From the IMG/VR virus record IMGVR_UViG_3300047189_000075, positions 1 through 24,914 of that record: a DNA stretch of 24,914 bases. One strand, given 5' to 3'. Each line of letters starts with the position of its first letter. Within the stretch, counting starts at the first letter, position 1. Below are positions 2,539 through 21,557 of the stretch, piece by piece. The translations under genes were made by a program, and so were the position numbers. The notes beneath the pieces are model-generated. The model worked only from the letters and a program-made list of their open reading frames with translations. It was not told the origin of the DNA and ran no database searches. Source of the stretch: a virus.

Positions 2539-3558
2539 TTAAATCTCTCCTACGTCAATGGATGGATCAAAGAATAAAATATCAGCAGATTTTGCTACCC
2601 CTACTCTTTGAATTTGATTACCAGCAGTTGAAGGTACAGTAGAAGTCATAAGCCCTGCTGTTGCTCCCGCAGAAACGTAAACCATTGCTCCTGTAAATTC
2701 AAAATCAACATCATCTCGAATATAACCCTTTACTAACATCTTACAAGTCTGACCATCGGTTTTTGATTCAAGAGCAATTCTTAATCCTGGCATAGTAGTA
2801 GAAGCATTTGCTTTTGCTAATTTCCATTCTTTATCTGTCCAGTTAAAATACAATAACATCCCAAAAATTACCGTTTCCCCAACAGGTTGACTATCAATAA
2901 TTCCTGAATAAGTATAGTTAGAAGCTAAAGCATTATAAAAATCTATAGTTGGAGTATTCGCAAAAACTAAAGCACCTGTTCCAGTTTCATCACTTATTAT
3001 TCCAGCTAATTCTGAAGAACTATCCATTTCTGTTTTTAAATAATATAGTGATAAGTCAAGAGTGGTAAATTCTAAAGCAGTCTCACCTGTATTTACTTTA
3101 GGATATTTCCCTGCACTACCAGTATAACTTGCAGGGGTATCAGTTAAACCTATAAAAGTAGTAATTCCGCCTTCTGGATATACCTGGACCCAGTTCCCAG
3201 CCACAAAACACCGGTAAACCTTAACAGTATCAGTGGCTAGATACATATCATTTACAACCGGGACAGCAGGTTTACTCGCATCTAATCCATAATTTAATTT
3301 ACCTAAATAACCACCAGTAGTACTATCTTTCGGGTATAGATCATCTCTTTTAGAATGACCCAATAAATTCCCCAGATCATCGAGTATTTGCCTAACCTCA
3401 TTAGTATCTTCCAGGGCATCAGCCTTGTCATCAGTACCAACATAAAAGTTAGCCCCGGATTCCTGAGTATATTTGTAATATGCGGTAAAGCCATTTATGC
3501 TAAATACCAGTAAGATAATTGACAAAATAATCCCTAACCATATTCTTTTTTTAAACAT
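2539..3558 (-). CDS. Tail-fibre-like protein with an N-terminal export/membrane segment
   Basis: The 339-residue product begins with positively charged residues and a hydrophobic helix (residues 6-26, I-W-L-G-I-I-L-S-I-I-L-L-V-F-S-I), a signal peptide or anchor. The middle contains fibre signatures common in phage tail fibres: F-I-G-L-T-D-T-P-A-S-Y-T-G-S-A-G-K-Y followed by V-N-T-G-E-T-A-L-E-F, and I-S-D-E-T-G-T-G-A-L-V-F. The C-terminal part is beta-rich and ends in I-D-V-G-E-I. Its role is probably receptor or surface binding. It follows one of the three GAGCTC-box terminator-like elements and has a good AAAGGAGAG ribosome site. A Sec signal on a fibre protein is odd: it may be displayed on the infected or lysogenic cell, or the hydrophobic helix may instead pack into the virion. 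Confidence 0.7.
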   Translation of the reverse strand: MFKKRIWLGIILSIILLVFSINGFTAYYKYTQESGANFYVGTDDKADALEDTNEVRQILDDLGNLLGHSKRDDLYPKDSTTGGYLGKLNYGLDASKPAVPVVNDMYLATDTVKVYRCFVAGNWVQVYPEGGITTFIGLTDTPASYTGSAGKYPKVNTGETALEFTTLDLSLYYLKTEMDSSSELAGIISDETGTGALVFANTPTIDFYNALASNYTYSGIIDSQPVGETVIFGMLLYFNWTDKEWKLAKANASTTMPGLRIALESKTDGQTCKMLVKGYIRDDVDFEFTGAMVYVSAGATAGLMTSTVPSTAGNQIQRVGVAKSADILFFDPSIDVGEI

Positions 3559-3585: not shown

Positions 3586-3652
3586 AAAAAAAGCCAGATC
3601 TAAAAGGTCAAAAACCTTTTTAAAATCTGGCTCTCTAAAAAATGGAGCTCTA
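3586..3652 (-). terminator. GAGCTC-box terminator-like element, copy 1
   Basis: Read on the minus strand this is TAGAGCTCCA (complement of 3643-3652), a T-run, AGAGAGCCAGAT, an inner hairpin AAAAGGT/ACCTTTT, ATCTGGCT, then a run of seven T. The stem AGCCAGAT/ATCTGGCT (3592-3599 with 3625-3632) is perfect. It lies about 20 nt after the last lipoprotein gene and upstream of the fibre gene. The same conserved outer parts recur at 19580-19644 and 21460-21523 around unrelated inner sequences. Confidence 0.8.
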
Positions 3653-3673: not shown

Positions 3674-4111
3674 TTATTTAAGTTTCCAGTCTCCGGGTGG
3701 AGAGGTCTCTTTAATTAACCCTATCTCATATTCAAAAACATCACTATAAGTTGTGAAACTACCAGGAAAAGGTATTTTATTAACAAAAATTGTTACATAT
3801 ACCATAGCATTATTCCCGATTACCTCAGTTTGTTTATGAAAATAAGGTTCTGGAATTAATACTGAGGCTTCACCCTCAGAATTAGTATTGATATATTCTT
3901 CCCATTCATCAACTTTATTATACCAGATTCCATCAGGTATGCAATACCACTTGGCTAATTCATATTGGCGATTAGTAATTGCCTGCCAATAAGAATAAAC
4001 TTCCTGTTCTGCCATTGCCTCTTCAGGTAATCCTGGAGGGATAGGGTTACAACCAATTAATATCAAAACTAAAAATATAACCAAAATTGATAACAAAAAT
4101 TTCCTTTTCAT
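3674..4111 (-). CDS. Lipoprotein, member A of a tandem family
   Basis: A 145-residue protein with a lipoprotein signal: M-K-R-K, a hydrophobic stretch, and the lipobox L-I-G-C with C21 as the lipidated residue. The mature domain (about residues 33-145) carries the family signature V-Y-S-Y-W-Q-A-I, N-R-Q-Y-E-L-A-K, Y-C, V-D-E-W-E-E-Y-I, N-S-E-G-E-A-S and V-F-E-Y-E. It ends P-G-D-W-K-L-K. The alpha-helix-then-sheet pattern is reminiscent of NTF2-like cone folds, but I cannot prove that. Asn follows the Cys, not Asp, so in a diderm it would be expected to reach the outer membrane. The GGGGG run before TATAAGCAATG serves as ribosome site. Its function is unknown. Superinfection exclusion is a hypothesis from position. 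Confidence 0.7.
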   Translation of the reverse strand: MKRKFLLSILVIFLVLILIGCNPIPPGLPEEAMAEQEVYSYWQAITNRQYELAKWYCIPDGIWYNKVDEWEEYINTNSEGEASVLIPEPYFHKQTEVIGNNAMVYVTIFVNKIPFPGSFTTYSDVFEYEIGLIKETSPPGDWKLK

Positions 4112-4149
4112 TGCTTATACCCCCTACTTAAATTATTCTTTTTTAGATC

Positions 4150-4590
4150 TTATTTAAGTTCCCATTCTCCAGGTGGGTGATTTTGCTTAATTAATTCTAC
4201 CTCGTATTCAAAGTTATCCCCATTTATTATATTACTACTAGGAAAAGGTATTATACTAACAGCAATTCTCACATATACAACAGCGTTATTTTCAATCGCT
4301 TCAGGTTGTTCATAAAAAGAAGGTTGATAAATCACCACTGAAGCCTCACCCTCAGAGTTAATATTTATATATTCTTCCCATTCGTCAGTCTTATGGTCCC
4401 AAACTCCGCCGATTACGCAATACCCTTTAGCTAATTCGTATTGCCGGTTAATGATCGCCTGCCAGTAATCCCAAACTGTTTGTTCTGCACAATCTGCATC
4501 TTCCAGTCCATCAAGAAAATGAGGACCGCAACCGGTTAAGGCTAAAATTAAAAATACGACAAAGACCAATAACAAAATTTTCTTAATCAT
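4150..4590 (-). CDS. Lipoprotein, member B of a tandem family
   Basis: 146 residues, lipobox L-T-G-C with C21. It is clearly paralogous to its two neighbours: V-W-D-Y-W-Q-A-I-I-N-R-Q-Y-E-L-A-K, Y-C-V-I-G-G-V-W, D-E-W-E-E-Y-I-N-I-N-S-E-G-E-A-S, N-A-V-V-Y-V-R-I, F-E-Y-E-V-E-L-I-K and a P-P-G-E-W-E-L-K end. The stop and downstream trailer (AAATAA then GATCTAAAAAA) resemble those of the 3674-4111 gene, and both leaders end in TATAA(G/A)CAATG, so intergenic DNA was duplicated along with the genes. The residues after the lipobox and the loop before the C-terminal strand are the most divergent parts, which suggests that partner-facing loops have diversified. Confidence 0.7.
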   Translation of the reverse strand: MIKKILLLVFVVFLILALTGCGPHFLDGLEDADCAEQTVWDYWQAIINRQYELAKGYCVIGGVWDHKTDEWEEYININSEGEASVVIYQPSFYEQPEAIENNAVVYVRIAVSIIPFPSSNIINGDNFEYEVELIKQNHPPGEWELK

Positions 4591-4627
4591 TGTTTATATG
4601 CCTAACCTAAATTATTCTTTTTAATAT

Positions 4628-5077
4628 TTATTTAAGTGCCCACCAATCTCCGTATGGGCCATTTGGCTTAATTAATTCTGTTTCGTATTCAAAGACATCG
4701 AACTCTAATCCAATCATTTTTTTACAGGGCAAAACTATTTTATCGGCAATAATTCTTACATATACAACAGCATTCTCTCCAATTACCTCAGTCGGTTTAT
4801 AAAACTTATCGAAATAAATTACTAGGAAAGAGCACTCACCTTCAGAATTAATATTGATATATTCTTCCCATTCGTCAACCTTGTTATCCCAAATTCCGCC
4901 AATTACACAGAAACATTTAGCTAATTCGTATTGCCGGTTAATGATTGCCTGCCAGTAATTATAAACTGCTTCTTCTACCAGGGACTTATCAGTAGTTAAT
5001 TCCGGAGTAACCCCGCAACCGGTTAAGGCCAAAATTAAAAGTATGACAAAGAACGATAACAAAACTTTCTTTTTCAC
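4628..5077 (-). CDS. Lipoprotein, member C of a tandem family
   Basis: 149 residues starting at GTG 5075-5077, preceded by a strong AAGGAGGG ribosome site. The lipobox is L-T-G-C (C21). The core repeats the family signature (Y-N-Y-W-Q-A-I-I-N-R-Q-Y-E-L-A-K, F-C-V-I-G-G-I-W-D-N-K-V-D-E-W-E-E-Y, N-A-V-V-Y-V-R-I). An extra lysine/cysteine loop (L-P-C-K-K-M-I-G) replaces the shorter loop of members A and B. It is closer to member B than to member A in its middle part. Functional proposals are the same as for the group and equally unproven. Confidence 0.7.
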   Translation of the reverse strand: MKKKVLLSFFVILLILALTGCGVTPELTTDKSLVEEAVYNYWQAIINRQYELAKCFCVIGGIWDNKVDEWEEYININSEGECSFLVIYFDKFYKPTEVIGENAVVYVRIIADKIVLPCKKMIGLEFDVFEYETELIKPNGPYGDWWALK

Positions 5078-5122
5078 CTTAAAATCCCTCCTTGGTTCTT
5101 TGATAGCCTTTAAAGAATCATC

Positions 5123-5539
5123 CTATTGAAGAGGACCGGTATAAGGTTCTAATATTAGATTAGTAACATTCATCCTTAAAACTTTTTCTCCTACTTTTTC
5201 ATTTTCTCCTACAGTTATCCAACAAGTGTGATCTTCAGAATGTCCCACTTCAACAAATGTCCCAATAGTATTCCAGTCTTCATAAATGCCTCCATCTTCA
5301 TAAATGCCTTCATATTCACAATAAGCAGCAAGCCAAATATTATAGTAACCAATATCGACATTCCCGGTATTAGTTATCGTATAATAAACTTTCACTTGAT
5401 CGCTCCACTTTCCGCCGGAATAATCTTGTTCCCACTTAGTTATTACAACATCAGCACTCAAATTTTCAAATAAACAACAACCCGATCGCAATACAACTAA
5501 TATTAAAAATAATATTATCCAAAAAATCTTTCTTTTCAT
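5123..5539 (-). CDS. Lipoprotein with an Ig-like (FxLYD/CARDB-type) domain
   Basis: 138 residues. The lipobox is L-R-S-G-C (C21, followed by another Cys), but the mature part is not related to the three neighbouring lipoproteins. It reads V-Y-Y-T-I-T-N-T-G-N-V-D-I, N-I-W-L-A-A-Y-C, T-I-G-T-F-V-E-V-G-H-S and W-I-T-V. This is the alternating strand pattern of small immunoglobulin-like domains such as FxLYD or CARDB (x-x-T-N-T-G-x-x-x-I-x-x-x). An 18-bp tandem duplication adds a second G-I-Y-E-D unit. Such domains usually mediate protein-protein contact at the cell surface. The ribosome site before its ATG is weak. Confidence 0.65.
   Translation of the reverse strand: MKRKIFWIILFLILVVLRSGCCLFENLSADVVITKWEQDYSGGKWSDQVKVYYTITNTGNVDIGYYNIWLAAYCEYEGIYEDGGIYEDWNTIGTFVEVGHSEDHTCWITVGENEKVGEKVLRMNVTNLILEPYTGPLQ
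5277..5312. repeat. 18-bp tandem duplication inside a lipoprotein gene
   Basis: Two copies of an 18-bp unit beginning TCTTCATAAATGCC lie head to tail at 5277-5294 and 5295-5312. They differ only near the unit end. The duplication is in frame and encodes the doubled G-I-Y-E-D segment of the lipoprotein at 5123-5539. Confidence 0.8.
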
Positions 5540-5586
5540 TTTTTACATATCCCATAATTTATTTAATTTTTAGACTTAATTTTATA

Positions 5587-6000
5587 TTATTTAAGTATCC
5601 AATTTACAGTTATCGAAGAACTTTTAGTTAGATATATAATATAATCACAGACTACTTCACTTTCATTAGATTTAATTATAATAAGATCAATGCTAACAAT
5701 AGCTTCATCTTCTATTATTTTAATCCAATTAAAGTTAATAATGAACTCTAGATTTGAATAATTCAAATCCTCATATTCCTCGACTACATTGTAAGCATTC
5801 CCATCCGGAATACAACAAATCTTGGCAAATTCATAATCACCAACGGAGATCATATCCCAGTAATAATTAATTAATTCTTCTATTTCTTTTTCATCATTCC
5901 AGTCGGGATCATCTTCAGGGATCATCCTGCAACCGGTAAATATTAAAACTAAAAGTATGATAAAGATCAATAACAAAACTTTCTTAACTTTTCTTTTCAT
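5587..6000 (-). CDS. Lipoprotein, divergent member D, first gene of the array
   Basis: 137 residues, lipobox I-F-T-G-C (C24). It is a distant relative of members A-C: I-N-Y-Y-W-D-M-I-S-V-G-D-Y-E-F-A-K-I-C-C corresponds to their Y-W-Q-A-I-x-N-R-Q-Y-E-L-A-K-x-x-C. An E-E-Y-E-D region and a short S-I-T-V-N-W-I-L-K C-terminus likewise correspond. The mature N-terminus is strongly acidic (P-E-D-D-P-D-W-N-D-E-K-E-I-E). It is the gene closest to the promoter at 6075-6103, with GGGG upstream of TATATAAGCAATG, the same leader as member A. The proposed role is the same as for the array. Confidence 0.65.
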   Translation of the reverse strand: MKRKVKKVLLLIFIILLVLIFTGCRMIPEDDPDWNDEKEIEELINYYWDMISVGDYEFAKICCIPDGNAYNVVEEYEDLNYSNLEFIINFNWIKIIEDEAIVSIDLIIIKSNESEVVCDYIIYLTKSSSITVNWILK

Positions 6001-6074
6001 TGCTTATATACCCCTAAATTAATCTTAAACCATCAATATATAATACGATATAAGCAAAGGGAAGTTCCAATAAA

Positions 6075-6103
6075 ATTATAAGTCTTTTTCTTATGTTTTA
6101 CAA
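6075..6103 (-). promoter_or_regulatory. Sigma70-type promoter for the lipoprotein array
   Basis: On the minus strand, TTGTAA (complement of 6098-6103) and a perfect TATAAT (complement of 6075-6080) are separated by exactly 17 nt. The -35 box begins immediately after the stop codon of the tail hub gene, and transcription would start about 65-70 nt before the first lipoprotein gene. A second, weaker TATTAT lies closer to the gene. A promoter of its own inside a late operon is the usual mark of a moron, a gene expressed from the prophage. Confidence 0.65.
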
Positions 6104-8917
6104 TTACTTTAAACTTTCATCAGTCCGGTTTAATAAATAAATAAATAGATCCTCTAATTTTCTAAACTTATTGGCGATAGTAACATTAAAAATATAATAT
6201 ATGATCCCGCCACTATCCCCGGCAGCCCTATATCCTTCTTCTGCTTCACTGGCAGGTTTATATCCTATTACCGCTTCAACAGCAGGTTTATAAGGTATAG
6301 TAGGCCATTCAGTAAGTACATCGACCCTTACCAATTCAATTTTTTGTATGATAAATTGTTGGTTAATATTTCTCTTTGTAGAATTTAAGGTTATTATCTG
6401 ACCGCTCCAAATATCGCTTCTGTTAGTTATAAAAGTTCCTTGAATAATCGGATTAGCATTCTGCAATAGGTCTGCTTTAGCCGCATCATTGGCCCAAGCT
6501 ATACTATCAATATTATTATCCACCAAGCAAAATTCAATAATACCGTCCCCACCTTCAATAGCGGAAACTTTATCTATAGAATCTTGATCTTCTCGTTTAA
6601 AACAAATGGGTACTCCGAAAGTAGTATAACCAACCAGCAATTCACTTCCTATAGTTAATTCTCCTTCCCCAATGCTTCCTGTGCCATAAATACTTACTGT
6701 ATCATTTGCACTAACCTCAAAAGTTTGATTTGTGCAGGGTATTTTATCTTCATTGATATACCATCTACCACTATATCCCGATTCAACTGCACAAAGATAA
6801 CCAGCGGTAAAATAAATACCTATATAATCACCCTCTACCACATTTAAATCAACTTCAAAGATTTGTTTTGAACCTGATATTACAGTACCAATAATTTCCG
6901 TATCCCTAGTGGAAAGTTTATTAGGAAATCCTACTGGGTCAGGACGATAAAAAATAGCCACTTTACAATAAGTTAAATTTGTATATGCCCATATTTCTAT
7001 CCGGGTAATCTTTCCGGTTACATTAGCCGGGTTACTTTTATTTATGTGTGTAATATTTGGATATCCAACTACTGCTGAACCACTTACTAAAGTCCCCACA
7101 TCAATCATTTGAGTACCTGCCGCCCCAATTGACAATACTTTCGTTTTTTCGTTTAACATAAAATCATAATAAAGTGGGTTATCTACTTCATCCCAACCGA
7201 TTGTTTTAATTATTCCATCCACTTTTATAATAGGAGAAGATTGTTTATATATAATAATATTGGGATCAGCAAAATAACCTATTACTAAATATTTACCATT
7301 ATGAGAATATATCGCTCCCTTACCATTTCCAGTAGGTAAATCGGTAGGATCAACCTGTTTACCTAAAATATCTCCCGTACGAGTATAGATAGTTATAAAA
7401 GGTGTGGTAGAATGAGCAACTGCTAACTGTATCCCATCAGGAGAGAAATCTACACCATAACTGGGACCAGTAGGTAATTCAGCAGGATTAGTTATTTTAG
7501 TAAATACGTCACCTGCTCGTTTATATACTGTAATAAAAGGTGTTACATCGTGACCTACCGCTAAATAAATAGAATCAGGTGTCCAAGCTATATTAAGTCC
7601 CCATCCAGTAGGTAAACTAGCGGGATTGGCTAATTTTGCAAAGGCATCTCCTGTACGCTTATATATAGTAATAAATGGTGTAGTATTATGAGCCACTGCT
7701 AAATAAACACCATCGGGAGAGAATTTACATCCGAAACCATCTCCAGTGGGTAAATTGGCAGGATTGGCAAGTTTAGTAAAGGTATCTCCACTTCTTTTAT
7801 AAATAGTGATATAAGGTGATGTATTATGTGCTATAGCCAGATAAGTGCCATCTGGAAAGAAATCGCAACCCCACCCAGTTCCGGTAGGCAATATATTGGG
7901 GTTAGTTAATTTGGTGAAGGTATCTTCTGCTCTTTTATAAATCATCACGTATGGTGTATTATCATGTACTACTGCCAAATAAGTAGAATCGTAAGAGAAA
8001 GATGCATCGTGTCCATTGTTATTAGGTGTAATATCAGGAAAGTTTAATCTTTTAAATAAATCATTTTCTCTTTTATAGATATAAATACCTTTATTCGCTG
8101 CCACCACTTTTTCATAAGGTACTGCCAAATAAATATCATCATGGGAAAAATCGCATCTCCAAACCCCCCGTGCTGGTTTAGGGTCAGGATCTGGTAATTT
8201 TTCACGCCCCCGGTTAATAGGTGCAAATTTACAAGTCCACTCCGTAGCCACACCATCATAAATAAATGTTTCTCCAAAAGTATCTTCTAACCCCGAACTT
8301 TTTACATAGATCCTATTCCTCAATTGAGAGATATTAGTATTAATTATTAAGTCTTTATAATTTGCCTGGTTATCATCCAATTGAAAAGGGGCCGGATAAG
8401 TATTTTTAGCAAAGAAATGGATATCCTGGTCATAATCCACATACCACTCATAACCGCAAATCTCAGCTATTTTGGTTAGGACTTCGGATACTTGCACAAA
8501 ATCGAAGGCTATTTCGCTTATAATGGGGCCATCACTGACATTATTATAAGTAAAACCAATAGTATAATTATCGATTATATGCTTATAAATATCACCGGCT
8601 TTTTGGTTTTTATAGGATTCAGATACTAATTTTTTATCTAAATCCCGGGTATGATCTATACATTCAACTGGATATTTCAAAAGATTAGGAGGTAAAAAAC
8701 TTTCTTCTTTGGATAAGATCCTTCCTGAAAATAGTTTATTAGCCCCTTCTTCAATTAAAACTGCTTCACCAGGAATGGGGGCAACAGCTATATTATTACA
8801 GATAAAATCAAAGGAAGCAGAATTAACTTTGCTGGTTAGCTCATCCCTTATGCTAAGGGTCCGGGCATCCACATATTCAGTTTTATCCACCCCGCCGATT
8901 TTAACCGTTATGCCCAA
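6104..8917 (-). CDS. Tail hub/baseplate protein with an inserted seven-repeat beta-propeller
   Basis: A 937-residue tail protein. Residues 1-210 look like a gpD/gp27-type hub: I-R-D-E-L-T-S-K-V-N-S-A-S-F-D-F near the start, then D-H-T-R-D-L-D-K-K-L-V and I-C-G-Y-E-W-Y-V-D-Y-D-Q-D-I-H-F-F-A, and Q-L-R-N-R-I-Y-V-K-S-S-G. Residues 250-560 hold seven repeats of about 43 residues with the consensus F-S-P-D-G-x-Y-L-A-V-A-H-x-T-T-P-F-I-T-I-Y-K-R-x-G-D-x-F, which predict a seven-bladed beta-propeller. Residues 610-748 are a beta-sandwich shared with the exported protein at 1967-2536. The remaining C-terminus returns to hub-like sequence (D-I-W-S-G-Q-I-I-T-L) and carries a small Y-K-P-A-x-E-A repeat. 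It follows the tape measure gene by 1 nt, the usual position for distal tail or hub genes. The inserted domains probably bind host surface glycans. Confidence 0.8.
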   Translation of the reverse strand: MGITVKIGGVDKTEYVDARTLSIRDELTSKVNSASFDFICNNIAVAPIPGEAVLIEEGANKLFSGRILSKEESFLPPNLLKYPVECIDHTRDLDKKLVSESYKNQKAGDIYKHIIDNYTIGFTYNNVSDGPIISEIAFDFVQVSEVLTKIAEICGYEWYVDYDQDIHFFAKNTYPAPFQLDDNQANYKDLIINTNISQLRNRIYVKSSGLEDTFGETFIYDGVATEWTCKFAPINRGREKLPDPDPKPARGVWRCDFSHDDIYLAVPYEKVVAANKGIYIYKRENDLFKRLNFPDITPNNNGHDASFSYDSTYLAVVHDNTPYVMIYKRAEDTFTKLTNPNILPTGTGWGCDFFPDGTYLAIAHNTSPYITIYKRSGDTFTKLANPANLPTGDGFGCKFSPDGVYLAVAHNTTPFITIYKRTGDAFAKLANPASLPTGWGLNIAWTPDSIYLAVGHDVTPFITVYKRAGDVFTKITNPAELPTGPSYGVDFSPDGIQLAVAHSTTPFITIYTRTGDILGKQVDPTDLPTGNGKGAIYSHNGKYLVIGYFADPNIIIYKQSSPIIKVDGIIKTIGWDEVDNPLYYDFMLNEKTKVLSIGAAGTQMIDVGTLVSGSAVVGYPNITHINKSNPANVTGKITRIEIWAYTNLTYCKVAIFYRPDPVGFPNKLSTRDTEIIGTVISGSKQIFEVDLNVVEGDYIGIYFTAGYLCAVESGYSGRWYINEDKIPCTNQTFEVSANDTVSIYGTGSIGEGELTIGSELLVGYTTFGVPICFKREDQDSIDKVSAIEGGDGIIEFCLVDNNIDSIAWANDAAKADLLQNANPIIQGTFITNRSDIWSGQIITLNSTKRNINQQFIIQKIELVRVDVLTEWPTIPYKPAVEAVIGYKPASEAEEGYRAAGDSGGIIYYIFNVTIANKFRKLEDLFIYLLNRTDESLK
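7238..8170 (-). repeat. Seven tandem WD40-like coding repeats (beta-propeller insert)
   Basis: Encodes residues 250-560 of the tail hub protein. The Y-L-A-V/I motif followed by x-H-x-x-T-P-x-I-x-I-Y-K-R recurs seven times at about 43-residue spacing. Repeats 2-6 are most alike; the first and last are degenerate, as is usual at the closure of a propeller ring. Each repeat ends with an N-P-x-x-L-P-T-G linker. Confidence 0.85.
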
Positions 8918-21436: not shown

Positions 21437-21459
21437 TTTATTTTCACTACCTTTCGAAA

Positions 21460-21523
21460 TAAAAAAAAGAGCCACCTAAGAAGCTATAGCTTCTTCAAAT
21501 GGCTCTCTAAAAATGGAGCTCTA
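21460..21523 (-). terminator. GAGCTC-box terminator-like element, copy 3 (before TerS)
   Basis: Minus strand: TAGAGCTCCA (complement of 21514-21523), T5, AGAGAGCCA, an inner perfect 18-bp palindrome (complement of 21478-21495), TGGCTCT and eight T. The stem halves 21468-21474 and 21500-21506 are perfect complements. It separates the accessory cluster from the packaging genes. No good promoter lies just upstream here, unlike copy 2. Confidence 0.85.
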
Positions 21524-21557
21524 TGATATTTAATTGTTTAAAATCTAATCTTCCTTT

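Follow-up and report, generated by a model that had tools for sequence, protein, structure and literature searches.

Why would a tailed phage carry, between the genes for its tail hub and its fibre, a row of small genes whose products bear signals for export and lipid attachment? The question is raised by the DNA analysed here (the window), a 24,914-base linear and incomplete virus record from IMG/VR. The late region of the window comprises the usual tailed-phage set (terminase, portal, capsid, tape measure and hub, with the tape measure gene matching PHROGs at E 4e-54), and a first-pass annotation had pointed out five small lipoprotein-type open reading frames (ORFs) lodged among these genes. 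The five ORFs are present on the minus strand at 3674-6000, with the hub gene upstream and a fibre-like gene downstream. Comparison with related viral contigs (designated below by L and a number) leads us to propose, with a probability of roughly 0.85, that the array constitutes a self-contained, mobile accessory cassette, or moron, which a group of tailed phages carries in its tail operon. Among the several functions that such a cassette might serve, superinfection exclusion is the leading candidate.

Organization and paralogy of the lipoprotein array

The array and its flanking genes comprise the following features, listed in the direction of transcription:

6104-8917, minus strand: tail hub gene (upstream flank), with a YqbQ-like N-terminus and a WD40-type propeller; matches Pfam and PHROGs baseplate hub/tail families
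5587-6000, minus strand: LP4, diverged NTF2-type lipoprotein, 137 aa, lipobox FTGC
5123-5539, minus strand: Ig-like (beta-sandwich) protein, 138 aa, lipobox RSGC in the window and LSGC in relatives
4628-5077, minus strand: LP3, NTF2-type lipoprotein, 149 aa, GTG start, lipobox LTGC
4150-4590, minus strand: LP2, NTF2-type lipoprotein, 146 aa, lipobox LTGC
3674-4111, minus strand: LP1, NTF2-type lipoprotein, 145 aa, lipobox LIGC
2539-3558, minus strand: fibre-like or virion structural-like gene (flank, 3' of the terminator); weak PHROGs tail/virion structural match, E 8e-6

LP1 matches its paralogues within the window with E-values of 9e-54, 3e-47 and 1e-14, placing their paralogy far above chance, and is 59% identical to LP2, 57% to LP3 and 38% to LP4. 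The existence of four paralogues, as first proposed, is therefore confirmed; the core YWQAIxNRQYELAK that had been ascribed to all of them is complete in LP1, LP2 and LP3 only, the corresponding sequence of LP4 (5587-6000) being YWDMISVGDYEFAK. All four proteins possess the signal peptide and good lipobox by which bacterial lipoproteins are recognized.

The fifth ORF is Ig-like, as had been noted; its designation as a lipoprotein has to be qualified for the window copy, in which the RSGC lipobox is non-consensus at position -3. The LSGC lipobox is found in L015, a contig 99.96% identical to the window, and in other relatives, and RSGC may reflect a point polymorphism or a sequencing error at 5487, so that this copy may be defective. 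Five further differences separate the window from L015, clustered in the hub gene at 7826-7857. The WD40-type beta-propeller of the hub (6104-8917) is an insert, and a few isolate phages encode propellers like it, at 27-41% identity.

An undescribed family with a predicted NTF2-like fold

Database searches bear out the initial impression that the family is undescribed: LP1-4 match no family in Pfam, PHROGs, NCBIfam or PADLOC, where the only library matches were weak and fell mostly over the signal peptide, and isolate phages yielded no match. Searching the sequences of solved structures with the family profile returned nothing, a viral structure library yielded only scattered weak matches, and literature searches on phage NTF2-like lipoproteins retrieved nothing relevant.

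An AlphaFold2 model of LP2 computed with 19 family members (m1a9de245bccb; pLDDT 85.5, pTM 0.73) presents three helices (residues 27-47, 51-56 and 63-78) followed by strands that form a curved sheet. The top Foldseek matches were NTF2/KSI-like, VirB8-like and PBP5 N-domain chains, at a modest E of about 0.003; VIA-align assigned the top chains (3rob, 3d9r and 3hx8) a Z of 11.3 over 108-113 residues, and the NTF2-type N-domain of PBP5 superimposes on the model at 2.3 A over about 103 residues. The model thus displays the three helices on a strongly curved beta sheet that define NTF2-like proteins, and the four paralogues are predicted to adopt this fold, which does not in itself give their function. 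The model of the Ig-like protein is a low-confidence beta structure (pLDDT 65), too poor for its fold search to return a usable match.

A conserved leader and terminator delimit the array

The non-coding elements that bound the cassette are the following:

6001-6103, minus strand: cassette leader, about 104 nt, aligned across viral contigs
6103-6098, minus strand: -35-like TTGTAA, in the leader
6080-6075, minus strand: -10 TATAAT, in the leader
6054-6037, minus strand: near-invariant 18-nt block CTTATATCGTATTATATA, in the leader
3586-3632, minus strand: strong rho-independent terminator closing the cassette, AGCCAGATTTTAAAAAGG...CCTTTTAGATCTGGCT TTTTTT

The promoter TTGTAA-17-TATAAT (6103-6075) had been put forward from its resemblance to the consensus. 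Consensus counts lend it no significance (32 found against 32.5 expected in shuffled sequences), and its support comes instead from conservation. TATAAT is retained in 10 of 11 comparable loci, ahead of differing first genes and hubs, the remaining locus (L014) reading TACAAT; the -35 box is unconserved in L011 and L014, and the promoter is lost in L017. The alignment of leaders from 10 viral contigs, to which those of L058 and L017 were joined afterwards for comparison, contains 58 invariant columns at a mean identity of 87%, and the leader also contains a purine-rich ribosome-binding site (RBS), with ATATAAGCA ahead of the start codon. Outside the window, the near-invariant block turned up in just 10 IMG/VR contigs, each belonging to this phage group, and it has no further site within 3 mismatches in the window; inspection by eye identified no -35 suitable for a second promoter within it.

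The leader of the window remains 0.82-0.89 identical to those of L007, L014, L006 and L008 despite cargo dS values of 0.6-1.05 between these contigs and the window, which argues that the leader is under constraint. In these diverged pairs the leader is better conserved than the synonymous sites of the cargo that follows it. This constraint is visible only at depth, since the contigs closest to the window, L009 and L010, show similar divergence in leader and cargo. RNAalifold identified a candidate hairpin over the RBS (arms TTGCTTATAT/ATATAAGCAA), in which most changes preserve G-U pairing, and single-sequence energies were no better than those of shuffled sequences, except in L009.

The terminator at 3632-3586 had escaped the first-pass annotation. 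A terminator of this form closes the lipoprotein genes at the equivalent position in all relatives but L013, and in L006, L011 and L058 its stem has been rebuilt from other bases (GAGAGCCA...TGGCTCTTTTTTT). Judged by sequence conservation, the array possesses the promoter and terminator of its own that are expected of a moron, and the conserved leader, -10 and terminator uphold the earlier suggestion that it forms a putative independent transcription unit within the late operon. A separate segment of the window at 21457-21542, between a radical-SAM-like gene and TerS, is 75-80% identical to the surroundings of the cassette terminator in L006, L009 and L011, a likeness that suggests recurrence of a terminator-type element in the genome.

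Cargo, tail type and insertion site vary between relatives

Scans of IMG/VR yielded about ten more contigs with NTF2-type proteins and a few others with only the hub, the Ig-like protein or the leader, and no relatives were found among the isolate phages and plasmids scanned. Leader and terminator stay fixed across these contigs while cargo, tail type and insertion site vary, the cargo genes being exchanged, duplicated or lost from one relative to another. Gene maps place one to five lipoprotein genes in each phage, mostly in the gap between hub and fibre genes. The first cargo gene is LP4 in the window, L006, L009 and L014, LP2 in L008, L010 and L012, LP1 in L007, and the Ig-like gene in L011, L023 and L058, which, like L006, encode relatives of the Ig-like protein. 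In L058, whose hub is 81% identical to that of the window, the same leader and terminator enclose a single Ig-like lipoprotein gene. In the phylogenetic tree, LP3 forms one clade in five phages (support 100/99) and LP4 another across four phages (100/100); because each constitutes a single well-supported clade across phages, these paralogues either predate the phage lineages or owe their distribution to exchange.

Insertion between hub and fibre genes is seen in the window and in at least six other contigs. This location would suit a component of the virion, for example a tail-tip protein anchored by lipid, a reading that we consider most improbable because close lipoprotein copies go with unrelated hubs: LP4 is 89% identical in L009, where an unrelated Prophage_tail-type gene and module lies upstream of the cassette, and the Ig-like protein is 90% identical in L011, whose hub is barely similar to that of the window. 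The number and type of lipoproteins also vary, and Sec/lipobox export signals are ill-suited to a tail assembled in the cytoplasm. The hub/fibre junction of L014, moreover, is uninterrupted, with an empty 26-nt spacer that resembles the right flank of the window, and the cassette lies after g189, past the next gene pair.

In nearly all relatives the cassette shares its strand with the late genes and immediately precedes fibre and lysis genes, an arrangement that would agree with a late-lytic envelope factor active at the end of infection. Such a factor might, for instance, mask receptors to spare progeny from loss to debris, or it might assist lysis. T5-type exclusion proteins are reported to keep phages from adsorbing non-productively to infected cells and debris (PMC9586334). 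The cassette's own -10 and terminator speak against simple late co-transcription, as does the L013 locus, where LP3 lies near an integrase gene outside the tail region and keeps only the last part of the leader; no spanin-like pairing was seen, and we regard a late-lytic role as quite unlikely.

Scanning 84,980 genomes with short conserved peptides returned a single contig, L017, in which leader, Ig-like gene, LP1-type gene and terminator lie beside miaA and a DUF2922/holin/M15/YvrJ gene set. A cassette copy next to miaA on a chromosome-like contig could indicate capture of a host housekeeping lipoprotein with no phage-specific role. The L017 cassette is decayed, with the -10 lost and the Ig start codon changed from ATG to ATA; since it retains the phage leader and terminator and is preceded by a broken phage-like ORF, it is best interpreted as a remnant. 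This, together with the lack of any other close relative in the genomes scanned, where distant homologues lie beyond the reach of short peptides, makes housekeeping capture improbable. The L017 segment (L017:1-4430) is binned in a 'Bacteroidales' metagenome-assembled genome, and its remaining genes (YvrJ, DUF2922, LLH holin) resemble those of Firmicutes; it is probably misbinned, and possibly derives from the true host group.

The empty site in L014, the differing hubs of L009 and L011 and the decayed copy in L017 point to the horizontal acquisition and variable position and presence that distinguish morons. Neither an integrase nor a resolvase was found in the window, an incomplete linear record; among the 12 related records, most of which are fragments, two contain an integrase and none a resolvase. 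Several relatives encode a second kind of lipoprotein just 3' of the cassette (L006:10776-11381, L011:10564-11151, L014:10575-11618 and L058:9882-10448). It does not occur in the window, and the L058 protein matches the transglutaminase-like Pfam family DUF553.

Variation is concentrated in one predicted loop

The first-pass annotation had suggested that loop variation among the paralogues would be in keeping with an arms race. Whole-gene dN/dS lies at about 0.15-0.6 for every lipoprotein pair, paralogues included, which denotes purifying selection (the hub yields 0.13-0.24) and thereby confines any arms race at best to one loop. Variation within LP1-LP3 is real and clustered: pN/pS is lowest in the helices (0.22), intermediate in the beta half (0.59) and highest, at about 1.2 (bootstrap 0.77-2.4), in the hairpin loop that spans residues 112-124. 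As this loop was chosen after the alignment had been inspected, a scan of all 13-codon windows was added; the top window, residues 107-119, has a pN/pS of 2.3 with pseudocounts, a value reached by none of 2000 column shuffles. Since the pairwise counts depend on one another and the loop alignment contains gaps, the clustering of variation is firmer than positive selection.

This pattern bears on lysogenic or lytic conversion, in which the lipoproteins would alter the host envelope through ligand capture, a cell-wall or stress function or surface masking, benefiting the infected host with no phages being blocked. NTF2-like folds often bind small molecules or act as wall-associated domains, as the matches to the PBP5 N-domain, RsgI9 and KSI-like proteins recall, additional lipoproteins lie near the cassette in L006, L011, L014 and L058, one of them transglutaminase-like, and a decayed cassette persists on the chromosome-like contig L017. 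Amplified paralogues with a single hypervariable loop are more easily reconciled with a binding partner that changes than with a constant ligand, however, and we judge conversion to be unlikely.

A proposed role in superinfection exclusion

The accessory, exported nature of the cassette is well supported, and we interpret it as a new lipoprotein family in a known kind of element. Cassettes of this sort commonly enable a phage to alter the cell that it infects. Superinfection exclusion is the function that we infer here, from the organization as a moron, the export signals, the arrangement in arrays, the variable loop and the resemblance to phage T5 Llp. The assignment is tentative, and we place it a little below even odds for the moron and its function together. 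The cassette would be transcribed apart from the late operon, in the infected cell or the lysogen, and its products would be exported and, with a lipid attached to the cysteine, remain anchored to the outer face of a host membrane, where the rapidly evolving beta-hairpin loop of the NTF2-like domain would bind a partner, either a host receptor or entry channel or the tail-tip protein of an incoming phage, and thereby block adsorption or DNA entry of further phages, with several paralogues widening the range of phages excluded. Lysogeny would not be required, as T5 demonstrates. Against an exclusion role of the lipoproteins, NTF2-like domains also bind small ligands or join envelope machines, and other envelope roles would fit as well.

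If exclusion were confirmed, the NTF2-like fold would be a new addition to the small set of phage lipoproteins known to exclude competitors, and exclusion genes would be seen to persist as exchangeable arrays that follow a conserved control region. A broader and decidedly speculative generalization is that the fixed leader and terminator are a standard phage expression slot for exchangeable lipoprotein cargo, and that NTF2-like arrays with one diversifying loop provide combinatorial surface exclusion in uncultured hosts. The arms-race idea becomes testable through the swap of a single loop, and the leader, which retrieved only contigs of this phage group, can serve as a search tag to gather more cargo and perhaps point to the host.

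Comparison with known systems

The window proteins share their predicted fold with the NTF2-like/SnoaL/KSI-like superfamily and differ from it in being only 8-16% identical, in matching no family model and in being phage-encoded and, by prediction, lipid-anchored. The comparison originally drawn was with Ltp of Streptococcus phage TP-J34, a lipoprotein that blocks DNA injection and whose gene has been proposed to be a moron (PMC3952083). The likeness to this moron-type phage lipoprotein holds at the level of function only. Ltp is encoded in the lysogeny module and combines a serine-rich spacer with a repeat domain, whereas the window proteins have a predicted NTF2-like fold and are encoded in the late operon, between hub and fibre-like genes; in Pfam searches with the 19 family members, extended to an E of 1, none matched the Ltp/host-cell-surface-exposed lipoprotein domain.

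With its different module and domain, Ltp is a weaker match than Llp of phage T5, which by analogy appears to be the better counterpart. Llp is a superinfection-exclusion lipoprotein that blocks the receptor, and its gene adjoins that of the receptor-binding protein pb5 (PMC9586334). Like Llp and T1-type Cor, the window family consists of small phage lipoproteins encoded beside receptor-binding or tail-tip genes, here the hub and fibre-like flanks, and Llp has its site of action in the infected cell's envelope (PMC9586334), where the window proteins are proposed to act through an unrelated fold. Llp is much smaller, with 61 residues in the solved model, against an NTF2-like domain of about 120 residues that occurs in arrays; a tblastn search of isolate phages with LP2 (E up to 1) gave no match, a remote relation to Llp or Cor being beyond such a search.

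As an element, the cassette most resembles phage morons, accessory units with their own promoter and terminator that lie between late genes and are horizontally exchanged (PMC6469090, PMC7067206), and it differs from them in keeping leader and terminator fixed around an expandable array of lipoprotein genes.
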